From: Leptolyngbyaceae cyanobacterium HOT.MB2.61
GTDB taxonomy: Bacteria > Cyanobacteriota > Cyanobacteriia > Leptolyngbyales > Leptolyngbyaceae
Assembly (NCBI GenBank): GCA_023511615.1
Contig: JAIMBL010000018.1
Location: 1-37,318, forward strand
DNA: 37,318 nucleotides
Direction: 5' to 3'
Shown here in pieces: positions 882-34,323 of the stretch (its first letter is position 1; each line of letters opens with the position of its first letter). A program made the position numbers and the translations under genes. The notes under the pieces are model-generated. The model was not told the origin of the DNA. It saw only the letters and a program-made list of their open reading frames with translations, and did not search any database.

Positions 882-1046
882 ATGGGGCGTGCTCGATCAA
901 AATCCGACCTGCCAACCAAAATTTGTCTGGTCTGCGATCGCCCCTTTGCCTGGCGCAAAAAGTGGGAAGATTGCTGGGATGACGTGAAATATTGCTCTGA
1001 ACGCTGCCGTCGTCGGCGATCGCAAACGAAAAGAGGTTCCCAATAA
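882..1046 (+). CDS. DUF2256 small Cys-rich (zinc-binding-like) protein
   Basis: A 54-residue protein that is easily missed because it is so short. It has the DUF2256 pattern: C15-x2-C18, then RPFAWRKKWED, then VKYC38-SERC42. The four cysteines suggest a small zinc ribbon, and the basic C-terminus (RCRRRR) suggests nucleic-acid or ribosome contact. The function is unknown in the literature I can recall. The ATG at 882 is preceded by AAGGAG at 862-867, a longer spacing than usual; an ATG at 877 is in another frame and opens only a short unrelated reading. The stop TAA (1044-1046) overlaps the next gene's ATG (1046-1048), so translation of the two is probably coupled. The family match is by eye and fairly distinctive. 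Confidence 0.85.
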   Translation: MGRARSKSDLPTKICLVCDRPFAWRKKWEDCWDDVKYCSERCRRRRSQTKRGSQ

Positions 1047-2014
1047 TGTCAACTGAGCCAGTACAACCCAAACTCATTATTCACGGTGGAGCAGGTAGTT
1101 CCTTAAAGGGAAAGGGAGGCGTCGATGCGGTGCGGAAATCCCTCTACACCGTGATTGAAGAGGTTTATGCCCTGCTACTGGCAGGGGCAACCGCTAAAGA
1201 AGCGGTAGTGCGCGGTTGCCAGCTTTTAGAAGATGATCCCCACTTTAATGCTGGTACGGGTTCTGTGCTTCAGTCAGACGGGCAGATTCGTATGAGTGCC
1301 TCCTTGATGGATGGGGCTGCTCAGCGGTTTAGCGGGGTTATTAACGTATCACGGGTGAGAAACCCCATCGAGCTCGCATTGACTCTGCAAGATTCCGACG
1401 ATCGCATCCTGTCTGACCACGGTGCTGCCGAACTTCTACGTGAGTTGCAAATTCCTACCTACGACCCCCTCACCGAAATTCGTTTACGGGAATGGATGCT
1501 GGAACGGGCTGGCAACTTTACCAGGGAAATGGCTGATGTGGTGGCCGAGCATGAACTGATAGAAGACAATGCCGGACGTGGCACCATTGGGGTTGTTGCC
1601 CTGGACAGTCAAGGGCAAATCGCTGTTGGCACCTCAACAGGCGGCAAGGGATTTGAGCGCATCGGACGGGTCAGCGATTCGGCCATGCCCGCCGGAAACT
1701 ACGCCCTACCGCAGGCTGCTGTGAGCTGTACTGGAATTGGAGAAGATATCATTGATGAATGTCTGGCACCCCGGATTGTGATTCGAGTGGCCGATGGATT
1801 GCCTATTCAAGAGGCTTTTCGGCGCTCCTTTGAAGAGTCCCACCAGAATGGGCGAGACCTGGGAGCAATTGGCATTGACCAGACCGGAGCGATCGCCTGG
1901 GGTAAGACCAGCGAAGTTCTGTTAGCGGCTTACCACACAGGCGAAAAGGTAGGAGACACCCTGGAATGGCAGGGGGAGCAGCTAGTAGCAGGGATTGCAG
2001 GTGATAGGAGCTAG
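1046..2014 (+). CDS. Isoaspartyl peptidase / L-asparaginase (Ntn hydrolase, plant type)
   Basis: A 322-residue precursor of the T2 family of N-terminal nucleophile hydrolases. The family self-cleaves before a threonine to give alpha and beta chains, and removes N-terminal isoaspartyl residues from peptides while also hydrolysing L-asparagine. Visible signs are the N-terminal HGGAGS (residues 13-18), NAGTGS (68-73) and GRGT-IGVVALD, which makes Thr180 the predicted nucleophile at the start of the beta chain, followed by the substrate-loop TSTGG and later CTGIGED. Length is typical. AAGAGG at 1031-1036, inside the preceding DUF2256 gene, sits 9 nt before the ATG, which supports this start. In the cell it would recycle damaged proteins or cyanophycin-derived dipeptides; that role is known for relatives and only inferred here. 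Confidence 0.92.
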   Translation: MSTEPVQPKLIIHGGAGSSLKGKGGVDAVRKSLYTVIEEVYALLLAGATAKEAVVRGCQLLEDDPHFNAGTGSVLQSDGQIRMSASLMDGAAQRFSGVINVSRVRNPIELALTLQDSDDRILSDHGAAELLRELQIPTYDPLTEIRLREWMLERAGNFTREMADVVAEHELIEDNAGRGTIGVVALDSQGQIAVGTSTGGKGFERIGRVSDSAMPAGNYALPQAAVSCTGIGEDIIDECLAPRIVIRVADGLPIQEAFRRSFEESHQNGRDLGAIGIDQTGAIAWGKTSEVLLAAYHTGEKVGDTLEWQGEQLVAGIAGDRS

Positions 2015-2120: not shown

Positions 2121-2229
2121 CTAGTAATCTGTCAAATTGAATTTGACAGTTAGCGAATACCCAGGAAGTTGATGGGGGTTAAATTTTGAGGGTCTGCGAC
2201 CCGTCAAAATTTTCCTGGCGGAACACTAG
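2121..2229 (+). repeat. Family A structured repeat, copy A1 (109 bp)
   Basis: One of three copies of the same length in the window (others 25122-25230 and 32568-32676), all in the same orientation. The ends are CTAGT / ACTAG. Inside are a palindrome GTCAAATTGAATTTGAC (2130-2146 region) and a larger nested hairpin: outer arms CCAGGAA / TTCCTGG and inner arms AAATTTTGA-GGGTC / GACCC-GTCAAAATTT around a TGC loop. The inner hairpin, with A-run before and T-run after, resembles a bidirectional terminator. It lies between the convergent asparaginase and PRC-barrel genes. The remaining intergenic sequence (2015-2315) shows nothing else I can name. Confidence 0.85.
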
Positions 2230-2315: not shown

Positions 2316-3269
2316 TCAGTAACTTTCTTCCTCGTATTCTGGGGCTTTCTGCTTTTCAGGAATGTTCATCTTGGGAGGTTGGTACGCCTTTTCTTCTTGG
2401 TCTTTCCAGTAGTCGTCTTCATAATCTTCTTCATACTCATCTGCCGGGTAGGACGGGGGCTTGGCATACCGGTCATACTTTTCTTCGTACAAATTAGTTG
2501 GGCTGGCTTCCTTCCAGTTGTCTTCTTCATCCTCGTAGAGGGGTTCTGCCCGCCGCTGTTGCTGATGCAGTTGCCTAGGTTCGTCGCCCCAGTTGTCGTC
2601 GTTCCAGGTTTGCTGCACTGGCTCTCTAGTTTTTACAGGAGTCGAGATGGGTGTGCGGACTCCGCTGGGAAGCTGGTTGTCAGGCCGAACGGTGGGAACG
2701 TAGCCTTCATCGTATTCATCCCGTTCCCAGGGCGCTTTGCCAATGCCGAGCCGCTCCAGCATGCCAACAGAGAGTTGAACTAGTCGTTCTTCTGCGCCTT
2801 CAAATACGATCAGGCGATCGGGGCCGCTGCTGACAATTTCCTCAATCGGCAGTTCGTAGGTACTGACAACCTGGTCGGGAATCAGGGGAACTCCCAAAGA
2901 AGCGATTATCAGCGAGGTGAGTCTACCGTCATCTACATCAAACTTGTAACCCCGAACCTTTCCAAGTAGCTCCCCTGTTTCGGTAATAACCTCGCAGCCA
3001 ATCAGGGTGCTGTAGGATTCAACGTCAATGTCCTCGATCACATTCTCATCGTCAACCAGAATGACATCACCAATCTGCCGGATGCTGCTCAGGAGCATGG
3101 GTTGGGGAGTGCCATAGAACAGGTTGGGACGCAGACTCAGTGCAACCACTTCTCGCTGGTCGATATCGACCCAGAGTTGACTGACCACTCCCAACTTTTT
3201 GCCCGTGTCGCGGGTGACAACAAGCGTTCCAAGGAGATCAGATCGTTGGCGAATTTCTTCAGATGCCAT
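2316..3269 (-). CDS. PRC-barrel domain protein with long acidic Tyr-rich tail
   Basis: A 317-residue protein with two PRC-barrel modules, about residues 5-80 (begins RSDLLGTLVVTRDTGKKLG) and 85-165 (STLIGCEVITETGELLGKV), each the small beta-barrel found in RimM and photosynthetic reaction centre H subunits. Residues from about 185 to 317 are low-complexity, proline-containing and strongly acidic with many tyrosines (runs such as YEEDYEDDYW), so probably disordered. No signal peptide or membrane segment is seen. It starts 46 nt after the smc stop on the same strand, so the pair is probably co-transcribed. Double-PRC proteins of this kind are widespread in cyanobacteria without a settled function; a role in SMC loading or localisation is only suggested by position. 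Confidence 0.85.
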   Translation of the reverse strand: MASEEIRQRSDLLGTLVVTRDTGKKLGVVSQLWVDIDQREVVALSLRPNLFYGTPQPMLLSSIRQIGDVILVDDENVIEDIDVESYSTLIGCEVITETGELLGKVRGYKFDVDDGRLTSLIIASLGVPLIPDQVVSTYELPIEEIVSSGPDRLIVFEGAEERLVQLSVGMLERLGIGKAPWERDEYDEGYVPTVRPDNQLPSGVRTPISTPVKTREPVQQTWNDDNWGDEPRQLHQQQRRAEPLYEDEEDNWKEASPTNLYEEKYDRYAKPPSYPADEYEEDYEDDYWKDQEEKAYQPPKMNIPEKQKAPEYEEESY

Positions 3270-6999: not shown

Positions 7000-7392
7000 A
7001 GCCTGCCCAGGTTAGAAGGGGAAAAGAAGGAGTCAGAGTTCAGTGTAATGGCTAGATGCTTGCTTGAGCAGAAATATCGCTATTTTCTAATTCATACAGC
7101 TCTACGCAGGTGCGTTAGGACATTGGAATTAGAGAGAGTGGGGGCTTCGCCCCCAGCTAGGGGTAGAACCCCTGCCCCCCGTCCTAACCATAATGACTAC
7201 TGCTATAGTATTTATAGAACATTTGCTCTATAAAAAATGCAAAATTTCCGCAATGCGTCATCAAGGGATGGATAGGGGCCAGAAGTTGGGAACTACTGAG
7301 GCTTTGAGTTTTGAGTTCTGAGTTTTCCCCTCACCTATCACTCCTTACTCCTCACTCGCAACTAACAACCAACCACTCATCAAGCTCTTTGC
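7000..7392. other. Intergenic region, smc upstream / sugar pyrophosphorylase downstream
   Basis: This 393-bp gap holds the double-hairpin repeat at 7114-7188 (listed separately) and AT-rich sequence at 7190-7245. The end (about 7310-7380) is made of degenerate CTCACTCC/AACTAACAACC simple sequence typical of cyanobacterial spacers. I see no convincing small gene. Confidence 0.6.
7114..7188. repeat. Double-hairpin G/C repeat bounded by GTTAGGAC / GTCCTAAC
   Basis: A perfect 8-bp inverted repeat, GTTAGGAC (7114-7121) and GTCCTAAC (7181-7188), encloses two adjacent hairpins, GGGGGC-TTC-GCCCCC and AGGGG-TAGA-ACCCCT. The architecture matches family D (two G/C hairpins side by side inside terminal inverted repeats), but the flanks differ, so it may be a related subfamily. 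Confidence 0.65.
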
Positions 7393-8992: not shown

Positions 8993-9838
8993 CTAATCGG
9001 GGGAAGCACGGGTGGCCGAACTGGTTAAATCGGTTACCGACTGATCCGTGAGTTGGCGAATCTTTAAATCCCGATAAAACTCTTCCTGGGCTAGTTCAAC
9101 TTTGGATTGAGCCGTGAGCAGCAGGAGTGCCCAAAAGACTCCAACCCGTTCGTGATTGGGAGAATGTGTCATTCGCTCAGAGGTTGCGGAGGTGGTTTGG
9201 ATCTGCTTCCAGAACTCCACCAGAAGTTCAAAGTCCAACCACTCCTGTCCCTGGGAAATTTCTGTCCAGTTATTCTGGAAAAATTCCTCCAGGGCGATCG
9301 CCATCTCCGATAAATTTTCCTGGTGGGCCAGTTGGGCGATCGCTCGCACTGCCTGAGTGCGCGATTGGGGGCGGGGGTGGCGAATCCGTGTGCGAGGCGG
9401 TCTTTCCTCCAGGGCAGCGGCGATCGTCCGCAACTGATCAATCAGTTCCTTCAAAGTTACCCGCCGCCGTTTGGGAGGCTGGGCAACTGCGCGACGGCTC
9501 AATCGCCGCTCCAAAAACGGAGGCAGAGCAGATCCGCTAAAATCCAGTGCTTCTAGAAACCCGTCTTCGTCCTCAAGCTCAGGGTTTGCAACCTCTTCTT
9601 GTTCTACCTGGGACAAACTCTCTGCTTTTAACAGCACCAGCATCGAAGCATACAAAAACGCCTGTCCCGATTGAGACAGGGTTGCTTCATAGGGCTTTCC
9701 TTGAGTCACCACAGGAGCTAAATCGCTCAGAAAACGATCAATCACATCAATCACCTTGACATCCCAGGGGTCAATTTCTCCCCGTTCTGCCAGATCGATG
9801 AGAAAGGCGATCGCATCCTGTGCAAGGGAAAGGGCCAT
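8993..9838 (-). CDS. scpA: Segregation and condensation protein A (kleisin ScpA)
   Basis: A kleisin subunit that bridges the two SMC heads. From the ATG at 9838 it is 281 residues. The N-terminus (ALSLAQDAIAFLIDLAERGEIDPWDVKVIDVIDRFL) matches ScpA, where helix and GEIDPWDV-type wording are diagnostic; the middle is acidic and variable (about 85-110); the C-terminus carries a winged-helix-like segment (about 190-270) that should bind the SMC cap. An upstream GTG/ATG extension to 9871 is open, but it would overlap the 38-residue ORF that ends at 9849, so the later ATG is preferred. It lies in a lapA / small ORF / scpA cluster with 10-18 nt gaps and sits about 2 kb from smc. No scpB is visible in the window. 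Confidence 0.9.
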   Translation of the reverse strand: MALSLAQDAIAFLIDLAERGEIDPWDVKVIDVIDRFLSDLAPVVTQGKPYEATLSQSGQAFLYASMLVLLKAESLSQVEQEEVANPELEDEDGFLEALDFSGSALPPFLERRLSRRAVAQPPKRRRVTLKELIDQLRTIAAALEERPPRTRIRHPRPQSRTQAVRAIAQLAHQENLSEMAIALEEFFQNNWTEISQGQEWLDFELLVEFWKQIQTTSATSERMTHSPNHERVGVFWALLLLTAQSKVELAQEEFYRDLKIRQLTDQSVTDLTSSATRASPD

Positions 9839-10381: not shown

Positions 10382-10501
10382 GGTTCTCTAGCTTGCCGGT
10401 GAAAGAGTAGCATAAATACTCTTTCATCCCAACAAAATCCTTGAAATCGTGATCTTGTTTCAGTAATAGAGCTTGCCTACTACTAATCCTTCAAGAGAAC
10501 C
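10382..10501 (+). repeat. Family B structured repeat, copy B1 (120 bp)
   Basis: Bounded by a perfect inverted repeat GGTTCTCT (10382-10389) / AGAGAACC (10494-10501). Inside, GAAAGAGTA and TACTCTTTC form a 9-bp stem, followed by an AACAAAATC / GATCTTGTTT stem. It matches copies at 13015-13136 and 24988-25110 and a deleted reverse copy at 34468-34521. It lies upstream of lapA and so may be part of its 5' region. Confidence 0.82.
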
Positions 10502-13014: not shown

Positions 13015-13136
13015 GGTTCTCCTGGCTTGCCGGTGAACGAGTAGCGTAAGCGACTCTTTCATCTAAAACAAAATCCCTGGAATATTGATTTTGTTTTGGC
13101 TATAAGCGTCCCTATCACCACACTCTCAGGAGAGTC
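13015..13136 (+). repeat. Family B structured repeat, copy B2 (about 122 bp)
   Basis: It starts GGTTCTCCTGGCTTGCCGGT and ends CAGGAGAGTC, an imperfect inverted repeat. It has a perfect 11-bp stem AAAACAAAATC / GATTTTGTTTT in the middle. The final 20 bp encode, on the opposite strand, the last residues and stop codon of the TPR-like gene. Confidence 0.82.
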
Positions 13137-23517: not shown

Positions 23518-23598
23518 TTCAACTTAAGACTATAGACCAAAACTCAGTGTATCAGCGTCCTGCACCCGATTTAGCGAAAGATGCCACAGAAATGTGAG

Positions 23599-23677
23599 TG
23601 ACAGGCAACAGGCGACAGGCAATAGGCAACAGGTGACAGGCAACAGGTGACAGGCAACAGGTGACAGGTGACAGGCA
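23599..23677. repeat. Heptamer-based tandem repeat (GACAGGC/AACAGGT)
   Basis: About eleven tandem 7-bp units, mainly GACAGGC and AACAGGT alternating as a 14-bp period, fill the petP-hisF spacer. The same units (GGCAACAGGCAACAGG) recur briefly at 27393-27410. Such heptamer runs are typical of cyanobacteria and can vary in copy number. Confidence 0.9.
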
Positions 23678-23724
23678 GAGCTAACTCAAAACTCAAAACT
23701 CCACCACCAAATCCTACCGCCTGC

Positions 23725-24987: not shown

Positions 24988-25110
24988 GGTTCTCCCAGCC
25001 TGCTGATGAAAGAGTCGCATGAGCTACTCTTTCATCTAAAACAAAATCCCTGGAATATTAATTTTGTTTTGGTGATAAGCGAAGCTTATCACCAAACTTT
25101 CAGGAGAGCC
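24988..25110 (+). repeat. Family B structured repeat, copy B3 (123 bp)
   Basis: It begins GGTTCTCCCAGCC and ends CAGGAGAGCC. Three serial hairpins: GAAAGAGT / ACTCTTTC, AAAACAAAAT / ATTTTGTTTT and a perfect 11-bp stem TGGTGATAAGC-GAA-GCTTATCACCA. A family A copy starts 11 bp further on. Confidence 0.85.
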
Positions 25111-25121
25111 AATCATTTTGT

Positions 25122-25230
25122 CTGGTACTCTGTCAAATTGAATTTGACGGTTAGCGAATACCTAGGAAGTTGATGGGGGTTAAATTTTGAGGGTCCGCGA
25201 CCCGTCAAAATTTTCCTGGAGGGACACCAG
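25122..25230 (+). repeat. Family A structured repeat, copy A2 (109 bp)
   Basis: Same orientation and length as the copies at 2121-2229 and 32568-32676. Ends are CTGGT / ACCAG; compared with CTAGT / ACTAG in A1, the third terminal base and its partner have both changed (A-T to G-C), preserving the pair. The 25231-25492 remainder of the spacer shows no gene; AAAGGA at 25476-25481 is the likely ribosome-binding site of the next gene. Confidence 0.85.
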
Positions 25231-27447: not shown

Positions 27448-27570
27448 TACTAAGTAGGTAGACATCATTAATTGGAAGAAAAGGGAGTGGGGGCGTTGCC
27501 CCCAGGCAGGGGGTTTCACCCCCTCCACCCCAAAACCATCTTTAATTTAACTGCACCCAGCTACTTAGTA
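27448..27570 (+). mobile_element. Family D element with 10-bp terminal inverted repeats (123 bp)
   Basis: TACTAAGTAG (27448-27457) and CTACTTAGTA (27561-27570) are perfect inverted repeats. Inside are GACATCATTAATTGG, then two G/C hairpins, GGGGGC-GTT-GCCCCC and AGGGGG-TTTC-ACCCCCT. The sequence from 27451 to about 27528 is nearly identical to the reverse complement of 1-77. No reading frame: it looks like a miniature (MITE-like) element. Confidence 0.82.
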
Positions 27571-27854
27571 CCATTTTGGGTTTTAGATTTTGGATTGTGG
27601 AATCGTTGAAATCGCTGGTTTCGTCAATCGATCTGCCAAATTCGCAATTTACAGCCAGTTTCAAATGCATCAACTATACTTCAGCCCCTAGCCCCTAGCC
27701 CCTTAAAGCCAGCTTCTAGCCCCTCAAAGTGTGGCTAACTCAACTAAAAACCCCTTTAAATTGGTGTAATAACCCACAACTAACACCCCACAACTAACAC
27801 CCCACAACTAACAACCCATAACTAACAACTTTCCCCTTTACTCCCGTATTAACC
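27571..27854. repeat. Simple-sequence spacer before the DUF445 gene
   Basis: This holds TAGCCCC-type repeats (about 27684-27725) and a 14-bp unit CCCACAACTAACAC repeated about four times (27773-27829). No gene was found. The DUF445 gene begins at a TTG at 27855. Confidence 0.75.
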
Positions 27855-29915: not shown

Positions 29916-32063
29916 CTAAAGCCCTAAGGCGCGCTTCCATGACTCAATCAGTTGCTGGGCTTCTGCATATACAGGGGCGCGGGATGGGATCTTTTGGGCG
30001 ATCGCAATGGCTCCTGGTAAGTCATAACTGGCCTGAGTCTTGGCGACTTGCAGGAGTTGCTGGCTCCATTCGTTGATCGCCCTGGTTGCCTCCCCTCGTA
30101 GCGAACTGGCCGCAGGCACCCGGTCAGCAACTTGAATGGCCGTTGCTAAAGCATTGGGAGAACCGGAGTTCGCTAGCTGACGGGCCTCCTGCATGGCGGC
30201 GATCGCCTGGGCTTTAGCGGTTTTTTCCTGAATTCGCTCACGCCAGCGACGAACATCGGCCTGAGCTTCGTTGTAGAGCGATCGCCCGGAGCGGATCTGC
30301 TGGGCCAGATTGATTGCTCCCTGCAAATCACCCGCATTTGCGTACTCTCGCGCCTGTAGCAGAATGGGTTCATCTTGAATGCGCTGGATTTCAGCCGTCC
30401 ATTTTTGGATTTTGCTGCGGGCTTCTCTGGAGAGGGCCCTGCCCTGCCCTACCTGCTCCGCCTGGGCGATCGCTGCCTGGAGGGAGGGCATATCTCCACC
30501 GCTGGCGATCTGATCTGCCTGTTCCAGGATAGGGCGGTCTTGAATGGTTTCGATCTGAGCCCTCCAGCGCCGAATTTGCTGCTGAGCATCATCCCAGCGG
30601 GGATTAGACCGTTCGATTAAATTGGCTTCAGCAATCCCGGCATTGAGGTCATCCACTGAACCTGGCTGAGCAAGGAGCCGCGCTTTTTCTAGTTGGGCGA
30701 TCGCCTCAATTTCAAGCTGCCAGCGGGTGATAAGTTGCTGGGCTTTACTATACAGTGGGCTGTTGGGGCCAATTCGCTGGGCCTGGGAGATGGCCTCTTC
30801 CACCGCAGGAATAGAGTTTTGCCAAACCTGAGATTGGGCATTGGCCAGGATCGTATAATCCTTTACCTCATCCTTCAGGTTGGCCTTTTCAGGAATTTTG
30901 TCCAGGATATCCAGTGCTTCTGCCAGGTTGCGCCGATCCAGGGCGGCCTGGGCCATTTCCAGCATCTGCTGTCCAAATTTAGGGATTGCCTGCTGGGCTG
31001 CCTGGTAAAGGTAACTTTCGGGGCGAATAGATTCGACTAACTTGATTGCCTGCAACAGGTTGTTCAGCCCACCTGTGTCTGCCAGCCGATAGGCCCGACC
31101 CAATTTGTTGCCGTCATTTCGGGTAGCGGTGATTCGGTTACTCAGCTCCTCAAATTTAGTCGTTCGCCAGTACTCGTTTTCAACATCCAGCAGGCGAACC
31201 GCATTGGAAAATGCCTGGCGAAAGTCCTGCTTCCGCAAAAGCTCTTCAGATTTCTTATAGATTCCTTCTGCCTCTGACCAGATGGACTGCCAGCGCTTGA
31301 TTCGTTCTTCGATCAGTTTGTGGGCTGTGACCTTGCTGGGAATCCGACGAGCAGAGGCGATCGCATCCCCCAATTTACCCGCATTGAAATCTTCCTCAGC
31401 TAGCCGCAGGACATCCTGGGACCATTCCTCCACCAGGCGATTGGCTTCTTCTCGCATAGAATGGTTGGGGGGGAGGGAATCAACCAGGGCGATCGCTTCC
31501 AGCAAGTCCTTAGCCGTCTGCTTACTTGCGGCCAGCCGGGCGCACTCAAACCGCAGCGATGCAGAAGCCAGAGGCCAGAAAATAGCTGGACAATTCGGTA
31601 ACCCCGGAATTTGAAACAGCAGCATTGCCGCCACCATTCCTGAACCGCCAAAGAGCAACAGGGTCCCAATAAGCCACAGTTTCCAGTTATAAAACCATCT
31701 CAGCCAATAAGAGTGCACTCTAAGGATGGGTTGCTCTGCTCTTTCTGGCTTCTGGTGTGACAATGGTACCGTTGTCTGACGTTTGCCATTCGCCTGGATA
31801 GCCCTGGGAGCAGGGTGTTGAGGAGGTTGAAATTCGTACTGGACTTCCTGATGCTGGAGCGGACGAGACTCTGCCTGGTTTGGGGTAATCACTTCTCGCT
31901 CCATTGGTTTGGGTGAGCGAGGCGATCGCGGTCTGGAAGTCCCGTTGTGATGAGCAACTGGGGCTCTTCGAGACACGGAATTGACCCGGCGCGTATCCCC
32001 TCCTGGTCTTGAGGGGCTGCCAGGGGGCTGATGGTCTGGTATTCCCGGATCTCTAGTAGTCAT
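29916..32063 (-). CDS. Large single-pass membrane protein with helical repeats
   Basis: About 715 residues from ATG at 32063 (a TTG at 32093 is possible). The first 125 residues are basic and proline-rich (PPGSPSRPGGD, SRPRSPRSPKP), then one membrane helix (about 127-150, WLIGTLLLFGGSGMVAAMLLF), and an extracytoplasmic part of about ten repeats of 45-60 residues, each reading roughly L-x-x-A-x-x-LA-x-G-x-x-x-x-L-x-x-AI-x-x-A-x-x-I ... Y-x-x-A-x-x-x-I-x-x-W. The repeats look like TPR/SEL1-type hairpins. Cyanobacterial homologues have at times been labelled chromosome segregation ATPase, but no nucleotide-binding motif is present. It immediately precedes, and is coupled to, the 3D-domain gene, suggesting an envelope role. 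Confidence 0.75.
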   Translation of the reverse strand: MTTRDPGIPDHQPPGSPSRPGGDTRRVNSVSRRAPVAHHNGTSRPRSPRSPKPMEREVITPNQAESRPLQHQEVQYEFQPPQHPAPRAIQANGKRQTTVPLSHQKPERAEQPILRVHSYWLRWFYNWKLWLIGTLLLFGGSGMVAAMLLFQIPGLPNCPAIFWPLASASLRFECARLAASKQTAKDLLEAIALVDSLPPNHSMREEANRLVEEWSQDVLRLAEEDFNAGKLGDAIASARRIPSKVTAHKLIEERIKRWQSIWSEAEGIYKKSEELLRKQDFRQAFSNAVRLLDVENEYWRTTKFEELSNRITATRNDGNKLGRAYRLADTGGLNNLLQAIKLVESIRPESYLYQAAQQAIPKFGQQMLEMAQAALDRRNLAEALDILDKIPEKANLKDEVKDYTILANAQSQVWQNSIPAVEEAISQAQRIGPNSPLYSKAQQLITRWQLEIEAIAQLEKARLLAQPGSVDDLNAGIAEANLIERSNPRWDDAQQQIRRWRAQIETIQDRPILEQADQIASGGDMPSLQAAIAQAEQVGQGRALSREARSKIQKWTAEIQRIQDEPILLQAREYANAGDLQGAINLAQQIRSGRSLYNEAQADVRRWRERIQEKTAKAQAIAAMQEARQLANSGSPNALATAIQVADRVPAASSLRGEATRAINEWSQQLLQVAKTQASYDLPGAIAIAQKIPSRAPVYAEAQQLIESWKRALGL

Positions 32064-32156
32064 ACGCTCAAAGGGAACGGCAGTGCCGCACAAACTCCTC
32101 GAACCAACACAGTTGACATCCTACTCTCCAAACTCCAAAAAGCCAAATTTATCGCA

Positions 32157-32483
32157 ATGGTTTCTAAAACGCCATCCCCCTCATTGCCTTCTGTCAAATC
32201 CTCAAGGAGCAAAGGATGTGTGCTGGTGTGTCAAAACCGCACCTGCTTAAAGCAAGGCGCCGCCGCAGTACTGGCTGCCTTTCAGGCAGAACCAATTGCC
32301 AATTATGGTGTGACAGGGACGGGCTGTATGGGGCAGTGTGGAAGTGGCCCCATGGTGCGAATTGTGCCCGATGAAATCTGGTATAGCCAGATTCAACCAG
32401 AGGAAGTTTCATTGATCATTCAGCATCACTTGCTGGGAGGAAAACCTGTCAAAGCGATGCTTTATCCAAAATTTCACTCGTAA
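32157..32483 (+). CDS. Thioredoxin-like [2Fe-2S] ferredoxin
   Basis: A 108-residue protein from ATG at 32157. Cysteines are arranged as VLVC25-QNRTC30-LKQGA, then GTGC57-MGQC61-GSGPMVRI, the pattern of the thioredoxin-fold [2Fe-2S] ferredoxins (COG3411), with Cys25, Cys30, Cys57 and Cys61 as likely ligands and an extra Cys21. The fold is like the NuoE C-terminal domain. Electron transfer is implied; the partner is unknown. It diverges from the repeat protein (94 bp between starts) and converges on the ygfZ gene, with repeat A3 in between. An upstream in-frame start at 32031 would read back through that divergent spacer and is unlikely. Confidence 0.85.
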   Translation: MVSKTPSPSLPSVKSSRSKGCVLVCQNRTCLKQGAAAVLAAFQAEPIANYGVTGTGCMGQCGSGPMVRIVPDEIWYSQIQPEEVSLIIQHHLLGGKPVKAMLYPKFHS

Positions 32484-32567: not shown

Positions 32568-32676
32568 CCAGTACTCTGTCAAATTGAATTTGACGGCTAG
32601 CGAATACCCAGGAAGCTGATAGGAGTTAAATTTTGAGGGTCTGCGACCCGTCAAAATTTTCCTGGCGGAATACTAG
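32568..32676 (+). repeat. Family A structured repeat, copy A3 (109 bp)
   Basis: It begins CCAGTACTCTGTC and ends GGAATACTAG. The same GTCAAATTGAATTTGAC palindrome and nested hairpin are present. Located between the convergent ferredoxin and ygfZ genes, as A1 lies between convergent genes. The remainder of 32484-32731 is low-complexity C-rich sequence. Confidence 0.85.
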
Positions 32677-32731: not shown

Positions 32732-33784
32732 TCAGGTCAGGCGATCGCGCTGCAAGAAGGGGACTTCCACCAGTTCTCCTTCACTGTTGCCAATCTTTAC
32801 CTTCAGTCCCTTGCCACCAGCTTTAGTACGCACATAACCCAATCCAAAGGGGCCCCGTTCGGTCTGGGTGAGGCTGGTGAGGATACCTATTTTTTCCTCG
32901 CCTAGAGTAATCGCCGTTCCCACTTCGGGTGGCTGATCGAGCTGAATGCCCCAGATCTGCTGTTTTACGCCTTTGTAGGTATCGAGGCGGGCTATGGTTT
33001 CCTGCCCGATGTAGCAGCCCTTATTCAGGGAAATAGCCTGCCAGAGGGATGCTTCAACTGCATTGTAGTCTTCGGTGAGTTCATGGTCCGGGGCCGGGCG
33101 ACCCTGCTCAATCCGGAGTTGCTCCCAGGCGCGATCGCCCATCGGCACTGCCCCTGCCTCCGTTAGCGCCTGCCAGAGGGCTGCGGCTCCCTCTCGCTCC
33201 ATTACCAGAGTGTACCCTGGCAATGCCAGCCCGCTCCCGACTGCAACCCGGACGGCCTCACCCGCAAGGCTGAAAAGTTGGTGACGGGCGTAAGGTTGAT
33301 TGACCAGCTCACTCACACCCCATTGCTCTAAAACGCGATCGCTTCCAGGCCCAATCACGCTGAACATGGCGGTTTGAGTGGTAATGTCTGCCAGTTTAAC
33401 CTTGTCACCGAAGAAAATATAGCGGTCCAACCAGGTCAGCAATTTTTCACGTCGATTGGGCGAAACGATTACCAGAACTTCATCTTCCAGTACGTAGGCT
33501 GTTGCCAGATCCAGGGTGCGAGCGGTGGAGGTGACAAAGATCGTGTCGCACCCTTCTCCTGGTTTCAGGCGATTGAAGTCGTTTGTGCTCTGGTTATGCA
33601 AGAAGGTGAGGCGATCGCTATCGGTAATTTGAAGGCGGCCCCAGTGGGAGCGATCGCAAACGGCAACGCCTTCCCTAGCAGCTCGAACTGCCCCCACCTC
33701 ATTTCCAAAACAAACGGGGACTGCTAAATCGGGTTCAAAGACTGCACCGCTTTTTTTCTGTAACGTCTGTAAGCTTTCCACCAT
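32732..33784 (-). CDS. ygfZ: YgfZ/GcvT-like folate-binding protein (Fe-S cluster assembly)
   Basis: A 350-residue protein of the YgfZ/COG0354 family, related to the T-protein of glycine cleavage. The signature KGCYIGQE is at about 255-262 (Cys257 conserved), followed by TIARLDTYKGVKQQIWG; the N-terminal half has RAAREGVAVCDRSHWGRLQITDSDRLTFLHNQSTNDF. It is thought to help assemble or repair certain [4Fe-4S] enzymes, binding a tetrahydrofolate. The ATG at 33784 is chosen; an upstream TTG (33811) overlaps the previous gene's TGA as TTGA, which would be a coupled start nine residues longer. The acidic protein gene is directly upstream on the same strand. Confidence 0.9.
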   Translation of the reverse strand: MVESLQTLQKKSGAVFEPDLAVPVCFGNEVGAVRAAREGVAVCDRSHWGRLQITDSDRLTFLHNQSTNDFNRLKPGEGCDTIFVTSTARTLDLATAYVLEDEVLVIVSPNRREKLLTWLDRYIFFGDKVKLADITTQTAMFSVIGPGSDRVLEQWGVSELVNQPYARHQLFSLAGEAVRVAVGSGLALPGYTLVMEREGAAALWQALTEAGAVPMGDRAWEQLRIEQGRPAPDHELTEDYNAVEASLWQAISLNKGCYIGQETIARLDTYKGVKQQIWGIQLDQPPEVGTAITLGEEKIGILTSLTQTERGPFGLGYVRTKAGGKGLKVKIGNSEGELVEVPFLQRDRLT

Positions 33785-33807
33785 CGCCGTTAAATCGTTG
33801 GAATGAA

Positions 33808-34323
33808 TCAACTCGGCAAGCCAGTAAATATCTCTGCCACGATCGCGTGGGTCTTATCATCCAACCGATTCCAGTCTACCTCTCCAGTTTCGTCCAACAG
33901 GCTGGTATCGACTTCGACTCCATCCTGGTCAGCATCATCAGAGATGTGGGAAGTACCGCTGTTGGGGTCGTAGTTCTGGAAGCAGATTTGATAGCACACA
34001 TCCCACAAATCGATGTAAATTTCGTGGTCATGCTGCTTGAGACAGAGCTGGTATCTGAGGAAAGGCGACGGCAGTTCAGCAAGTGCCTCTTCAATTTCAT
34101 CCGCACGTTCTGGTGAAACTGTATCCAATTCTGCCTGAAGCTGATTCACCCTGAACTTAACTTCTTCGCTGGTGCCCTCCGGCCAGATGGCGGTCTCCAC
34201 GTAGCTACCCTGCCAGGAAGATTGCTCAAGCTGCTTGCGGATATTATCGATCAGTCGAATAAAAACTGGCTGCATCAGGGCTTCCGCCTGTTGCCAGGTG
34301 GTAATGTCCTGGAACTTCGGCAT
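33808..34323 (-). CDS. Conserved acidic cyanobacterial protein of unknown function
   Basis: A 171-residue, probably soluble protein, starting PKFQDITTWQQAEALMQPVFIRLIDNIRKQLE. The middle has alternating hydrophobic and charged residues (FLRYQLCLKQHDHEIYIDLWDVCYQICF), and the C-terminus is very acidic (SDDADQDGVEVDTSLLDETGEVDW). No membrane helix, signal peptide or known catalytic motif. ATG at 34323 with AAGG 9 nt upstream. It precedes ygfZ with a 4-bp overlap of the TTG alternative start, so a link with Fe-S cluster repair is possible. I do not know the family. Confidence 0.75.
   Translation of the reverse strand: MPKFQDITTWQQAEALMQPVFIRLIDNIRKQLEQSSWQGSYVETAIWPEGTSEEVKFRVNQLQAELDTVSPERADEIEEALAELPSPFLRYQLCLKQHDHEIYIDLWDVCYQICFQNYDPNSGTSHISDDADQDGVEVDTSLLDETGEVDWNRLDDKTHAIVAEIFTGLPS

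Follow-up and report, generated by a model that had tools for sequence, protein, structure and literature searches.

A CTAG-flanked family of 109-bp repeats in Leptolyngbyaceae cyanobacteria, probably MITEs moved by IS630-type transposases

The window analyzed here, a stretch of 37,318 nucleotides from Leptolyngbyaceae cyanobacterium HOT.MB2.61, carries three copies of a 109-bp repeat that we interpret, with a probability of about 0.92, as gene-less MITE copies moved in trans by IS630/Tc1-mariner-type transposases, inserting at CTAG with duplication of the target. The observations behind this reading are the family and its end sequences, transposase-bearing ISs with matching ends in relatives, boundaries shared by neighboring elements, empty sites and concordant 4-bp flanks. 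Under the proposed mechanism, the transposase would recognize ends of about 28 bp of the form T-N-N-TCYGYCA(A)-N7-TTTGAYRG, and the element would insert at CTAG, rarely at CTAC or GTAG, the target being duplicated, apparently over 4 bp. Repeated insertion into the CTAG of an existing end would then give rise to head-to-tail arrays of MITEs and full ISs with single CTAGs in common.

Three Copies in the Window and Their Structure

The three repeats, 91–93% identical to each other, are all complete, all on the plus strand and all recovered by the covariance model, and they have the equal length and single orientation already described in the earlier note. Copy A1 (2121–2229; 127 bits) has CTAG...CTAG ends and lies in the gap between the convergent genes 1046–2014 (+) and 2316–3269 (-). 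Copy A2 (25122–25230) has CTGG...CCAG ends and is located between co-directional genes. Copy A3 (32568–32676) has CCAG...CTAG ends and again occupies a convergent gap, between 2Fe-2S ferredoxin-like and YgfZ/GcvT-like genes (32031–32483, + and 32732–33811, -), in agreement with the previous observation that two of the three copies separate convergent genes.

In A1, the outermost tetranucleotides are assigned as left and right target copies (2121–2124 and 2226–2229), the left CTAG on the basis of direct-repeat statistics on 210 copies and of empty paralogous sites. The MITE ends read CTAG followed by TACTCTGTCAA... and CTAG followed by TGTTCCGCCAGG..., and in A1 they comprise a left terminal inverted repeat, TAATCTGTCAA-N7-TTGACAGTTA (2125–2152, plus strand), and a right one that reads TGTTCCGCCAGGAAAATTTTGACGGGTC on the minus strand (2198–2225). 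Both inner features named before, the palindrome GTCAAATT-G-AATTTGAC and the nested hairpin AAATTTTGA-GGGTC-TGC-GACCC-G-TCAAAATTT, were found, the latter as an internal quasi-palindrome at 2181–2212 (plus strand). The GTCAAATT palindrome (2131–2147) falls inside the left terminal inverted repeat and is the bipartite end motif with a complementary spacer. A 34-bp match at 9312–9345 falls inside a coding frame, and we regarded it as due to chance or as a relic.

A Dispersed Family in the Genome and in Relatives

Searching the draft genome (5.29 Mb, 383 contigs) with the core pattern at up to two mismatches gave 123 matches, in comparison with 0 for a reversed-pattern control, and with a covariance model based on 12 diverse copies the family was detected in 23 of the 58 related genomes, with 77 matches in G009 and 149 in G050. 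Searching the genome and relatives, as the earlier note had proposed, thus returned a dispersed family. Exact-core matches were present in Leptolyngbya sp. PCC 6406, Petrachloros mirabilis ULC683 and one Leptolyngbyaceae MAG, and many GCGATCGC sites occur in the window. With a length of 109 bp, no coding capacity and 123 core matches, the family has the properties by which MITEs are recognized, namely, shortness (below about 600 bp), a lack of coding capacity and numerous dispersed copies. Several contigs of the genome terminate inside a copy, as expected because repeats break assembly. The window had no Rfam match at gathering thresholds, and no description of this MITE family was found in the open-licence literature; this sizeable IS630-type MITE family is apparently undescribed.

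Other repeats were observed alongside this family. A sister subfamily of 107–120 bp (CTAGTGGTCTGTCAAACTAAATTTGACAGGTGG...) is represented in the same genome by L246, L247, L255 and L257, two of which are enlarged via partial internal duplications. A second dispersed family of about 94 bp (GGTTCTCC...AACAAAATCCCTGGAATATTGATTTTGTTTTGG) occupies 13015–13108, 24988–25081 and partly 10388–10460 of the window, one copy lying 40 bp from A2, as well as many further genome loci, and its copy at L064 hosts a MITE insertion. Window positions 7122–7163 and 27471–27512 hold a repeat with a GGGGGC...GCCCCC hairpin (GTGGGGGCTTCGCCCCCAGC), and similar sequence adjoins some MITE copies. Short tandem repeats with a 7/14-base rhythm are located at 23598–23681 and 27767–27836 (GTGACAGGCAACAG; TAACACCCCACAAC).

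Ends in Common with IS630-Type Insertion Sequences

IS630/Tc1-mariner-type ISs of about 1.2 kb (HTH + DDE_3) in relatives, including the same-genus genome G001, bear MITE-like ends, which answers, with a partner from relatives, the earlier suggestion to look for a transposase with the same ends. When inverted pairs of the end motif were searched for, a 1222-bp element was retrieved in G009 (L190), and a search for the IS630 family showed the same element to be present in G001 in over 20 copies. These ISs of about 1.22 kb, in G001 and G009 alike, encode orfA (HTH_32/HTH_23) and orfB (DDE_3); in the G009 copy, orfB (PF13358, E=5.6e-24) overlaps orfA, and a run of seven A inside the overlap points to probable frameshifting. 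Matches above cut-off to NF033545, together with matches to PF13358, PF13565 and PF13384, place the partner transposase in the IS630 type. In G029, a matching left end lies beside a third transposase gene of this type (L222).

After CTAG, the A1 ends agree with the IS ends at 20 (left) and 21 (right) of 28 positions, whereas 587 other CTAG sites in DNA of the HOT.MB2.61 genome gave 18 of 28 at best. The layout common to MITE and IS ends is T-N-N-TCYGYCA-N-N7-TTTGA or near it, and beyond the end motif no similarity was found between the interiors of IS and MITE. The terminal inverted repeats are therefore common to the MITE and a transposase-bearing element, and IS630-type transposases probably move this MITE. 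In the draft genome itself, whose 383 contigs often end in repeats, an intact IS630-type IS with these ends was not detected, and the sole IS630-type ORF seen there beside such an end is interrupted by that end (L212). At this locus (G000 C351, about 1463–1977), an orfA is truncated by the end of another CTAG-ended element.

An IS701 partner was first suspected because of the CTAG target. IS701-family elements have 4-bp YTAG targets, and a 4-bp CTAG target duplication would fit a MITE of this family. However, two complete IS701-family genes in relatives (L140 and L141) lack these ends, which flank IS630-family genes instead, and we regard an IS701 origin as very improbable.

Shared Boundaries, Empty Sites and Target Duplication

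The claim that the repeats could be mobile elements was borne out by shared boundaries and empty sites, in combination with the matching IS630-family ISs of relatives. MITE tandems in G001 and G029 are spaced at 105 bp, i.e., 109 minus 4, and adjacent copies therefore have one CTAG in common. Head-to-tail junctions of a MITE and a full IS via one CTAG were likewise observed (L213, L274, L276, L277 and L195/L136), the L195 chain consisting of a MITE, a second MITE and an IS. Additionally, MITE copies lie inside other repeat families whose unoccupied paralogues carry a single tetranucleotide at the site (L071 compared with L080; L111 with L055; L101 with the window; and L036, with CTAC, compared with L078, with CCAC). 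A3 is missing between the corresponding genes of G001, so that empty sites accompany the direct 4-bp flanks as expected of a MITE with target-site duplication.

The flanks read CTAG/CTAG in 140 of 210 complete copies from several genomes. A duplicated target predicts that the remaining flanks form direct repeats, whereas the earlier idea of paired ends predicts inverted-complement pairs. Concordant non-CTAG flanks were direct repeats, namely, five CTAC/CTAC and one GTAG/GTAG (210 copies; permutation p=1.2e-4), and exact inverted-complement pairs numbered three (p=0.06; p=0.08 for such ends in the 73 copies complete in the HOT.MB2.61 genome). GTAG/GTAG flanks were also found in one IS copy (L269). 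Among discordant flanks, CTAG/CTAA (9) and TTAG/CTAG (5) were found along with a few with CTAT; a simple TA duplication in which the outer base is free to vary would explain these flanks but does not account for the concordant CTAC and GTAG cases, and most of the changes are transitions, compatible with decay. In G050, at least 6 of about 40 copies (e.g., L294, L331 and L337) have a right target CTAA and a left CTAG, a frequency possibly above that expected from simple decay. TA is the target center; the concordant CTAC/CTAC and GTAG/GTAG flanks favor 4 bp, and the discordant CTAG/CTAA flanks are compatible with 2 bp. We give roughly even odds to the proposal that, in Leptolyngbya-like cyanobacteria, target duplication by a lineage of IS630-type ISs and their MITEs spans 4 bp (CTAG, in some cases CTAC or GTAG) in place of the TA by which Tc1/mariner-IS630 integration is defined, and that this drives the formation of element chains with single CTAGs in common.

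The same flanks bear on the maintained pairing of the ends that had been proposed from A1 and A2. The change from CTAGT/ACTAG in A1 to CTGGT/ACCAG in A2 is present as stated, but A3 ends in CCAGT/ACTAG, which breaks the supposed pair in one of the three window copies, and across the 73 complete copies of the genome the four outermost pairs show 3 compensatory against 40 one-sided changes, a ratio that does not uphold maintained pairing. Two of these three compensatory changes are CTGG/CCAG. The A2 pattern recurs once (L101), the empty paralogue of which reads CTAG, and the pattern would be accounted for by a pair of transitions within a palindromic site. No covariation beyond chance was seen in the end stem, its double changes being reached by 85 of 500 shuffles of the 12 diverse rows. 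The mismatch to consensus was 0.081 at the eight target positions and 0.055 elsewhere; therefore, conservation at the ends does not exceed that of the remaining positions. The outer 4 bp is thus target DNA, mostly CTAG and apparently duplicated, and its maintenance as an RNA stem is not supported.

Joint variation of both flanks as direct repeats also speaks against a single-strand element of the IS200/IS605 type (REPIN-like), which would have subterminal hairpins, no duplication and a target tetranucleotide at the left end only. In IS200/IS605-type elements, the right-end tetranucleotide is fixed. Subterminal hairpins are indeed present here, a single CTAG is common to tandem neighbors, and GTAG-tagged REPs are known in cyanobacteria (PMC3733652), but the transposases that possess these ends are HTH + DDE_3 rather than Y1, a contradiction that leaves this reading hardly any probability.

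Inner Hairpins and Gene Context

The two inner helices of the MITE pair in 95.6% of cells, and their covariation score (0.092) was above that of shuffled alignments (0.045), none of 500 of which reached it. Both partners changed together at columns 16/22 and 17/21 in the left helix and at 74/78 in the right one. The hairpin tips GGGTC...GACCC and GGGTT...AACCC alternate between lineages. Covariation thus holds statistically for the inner hairpins, with no excess at the outer end pair for which the earlier note had put it forward. This inner covariation is either a real constraint or correction towards symmetry, and it fits equally well a symmetric transposase site, a DNA hairpin, template-switch correction of quasi-palindromes or RNA. 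In five copies of the genome (L105, L085, L093, L108 and L115), the hairpin tip is inverted (TTTTGACGGGTCGCAGACCC instead of TTTTGAGGGTCTGCGACCC); three of them read exactly CGGGTCGCAGACCC, and some of the five are perfect palindromes, which suggests template-switch correction of quasi-palindromes. In the MITE, the internal palindromes may serve as transposase sites or as DNA hairpins used in transposition.

An RNA element or bidirectional terminator under selection, whose end stem and hairpins would form in RNA and stop transcription arriving from either side, would draw on this inner covariation, on the folding of most single copies, which is better than that of shuffles (z down to about -8), and on the convergent genes around two of the three window copies. 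Nevertheless, covariation in a palindrome is equally expected of a symmetric protein site or DNA hairpin, and the end stem, as reported above, does not covary beyond chance. The gene context, determined with a home-made gene caller that missed the ferredoxin-like gene beside A3, is no more favorable: the 63 classifiable copies, none of which overlaps a predicted gene, lie in 35 co-directional, 15 divergent and 13 convergent gaps, the convergent fraction (21%) equaling the 21% expected by intergenic length, and in co-directional gaps 17 copies are oriented with the upstream gene and 18 against it. The terminator scan called no intrinsic terminator (a GC hairpin directly followed by a T run) within the copies, and in G001 the gene pair that flanks A3 has no repeat between its members. 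With convergent gaps not enriched, strand bias absent and no terminator called, the proposed bidirectional terminators found no support, and we consider this explanation unlikely. A host role of the copies is not indicated, and we infer that they have no positive host function; single copies may affect transcripts.

Comparison with Known Systems

The closest known systems are IS630/Tc1-mariner elements, such as ISY100, and their MITEs, which resemble the family described here in short inverted-repeat ends, an HTH + DDE transposase, TA-centered insertion and a cyanobacterial host. ISY100 of Synechocystis PCC 6803 and IS630 are reported to insert at TA with duplication of that dinucleotide alone (PMC2170065), whereas the stretch duplicated here looks like 4 bp (CTAG, CTAC or GTAG); furthermore, ISY100 has a single reading frame and the present ISs have two that overlap. 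The apparent 4-bp CTAG duplication is the new detail, and the open-licence papers searched yielded no bacterial IS630 element that duplicates CTAG. By description only, the family can also be likened to the Nezha MITEs of cyanobacteria, as cited in PMC3733652, and to the MITEs of Anabaena sp. 90 (PMC3542288), both short and multi-copy. The Anabaena MITEs, structured and mostly intergenic, were reported as type II, with no IS that has their ends (PMC3542288), whereas matching ISs exist for the present family in related genomes. GTAG-tagged REPs and REPINs (PMC3733652, PMC3116915) are likewise multi-copy palindromes situated close to a GTAG tetranucleotide and occur in cyanobacteria as well, but REPs go with RAYT (IS200/IS605) transposases and have the tag at one end, while here the target stands at both ends and the transposase is of the DDE type.

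Implications

A large class of short dispersed repeats, in this cyanobacterial genome and in those of relatives, is accounted for by the MITE family, as are the assembly breaks at these repeats. It also illustrates that a palindromic target site can mimic covariation of the ends when only two or three copies are seen. The 4-bp duplication, if true, would depart from the TA rule of IS630 integration, an exception testable in vitro.
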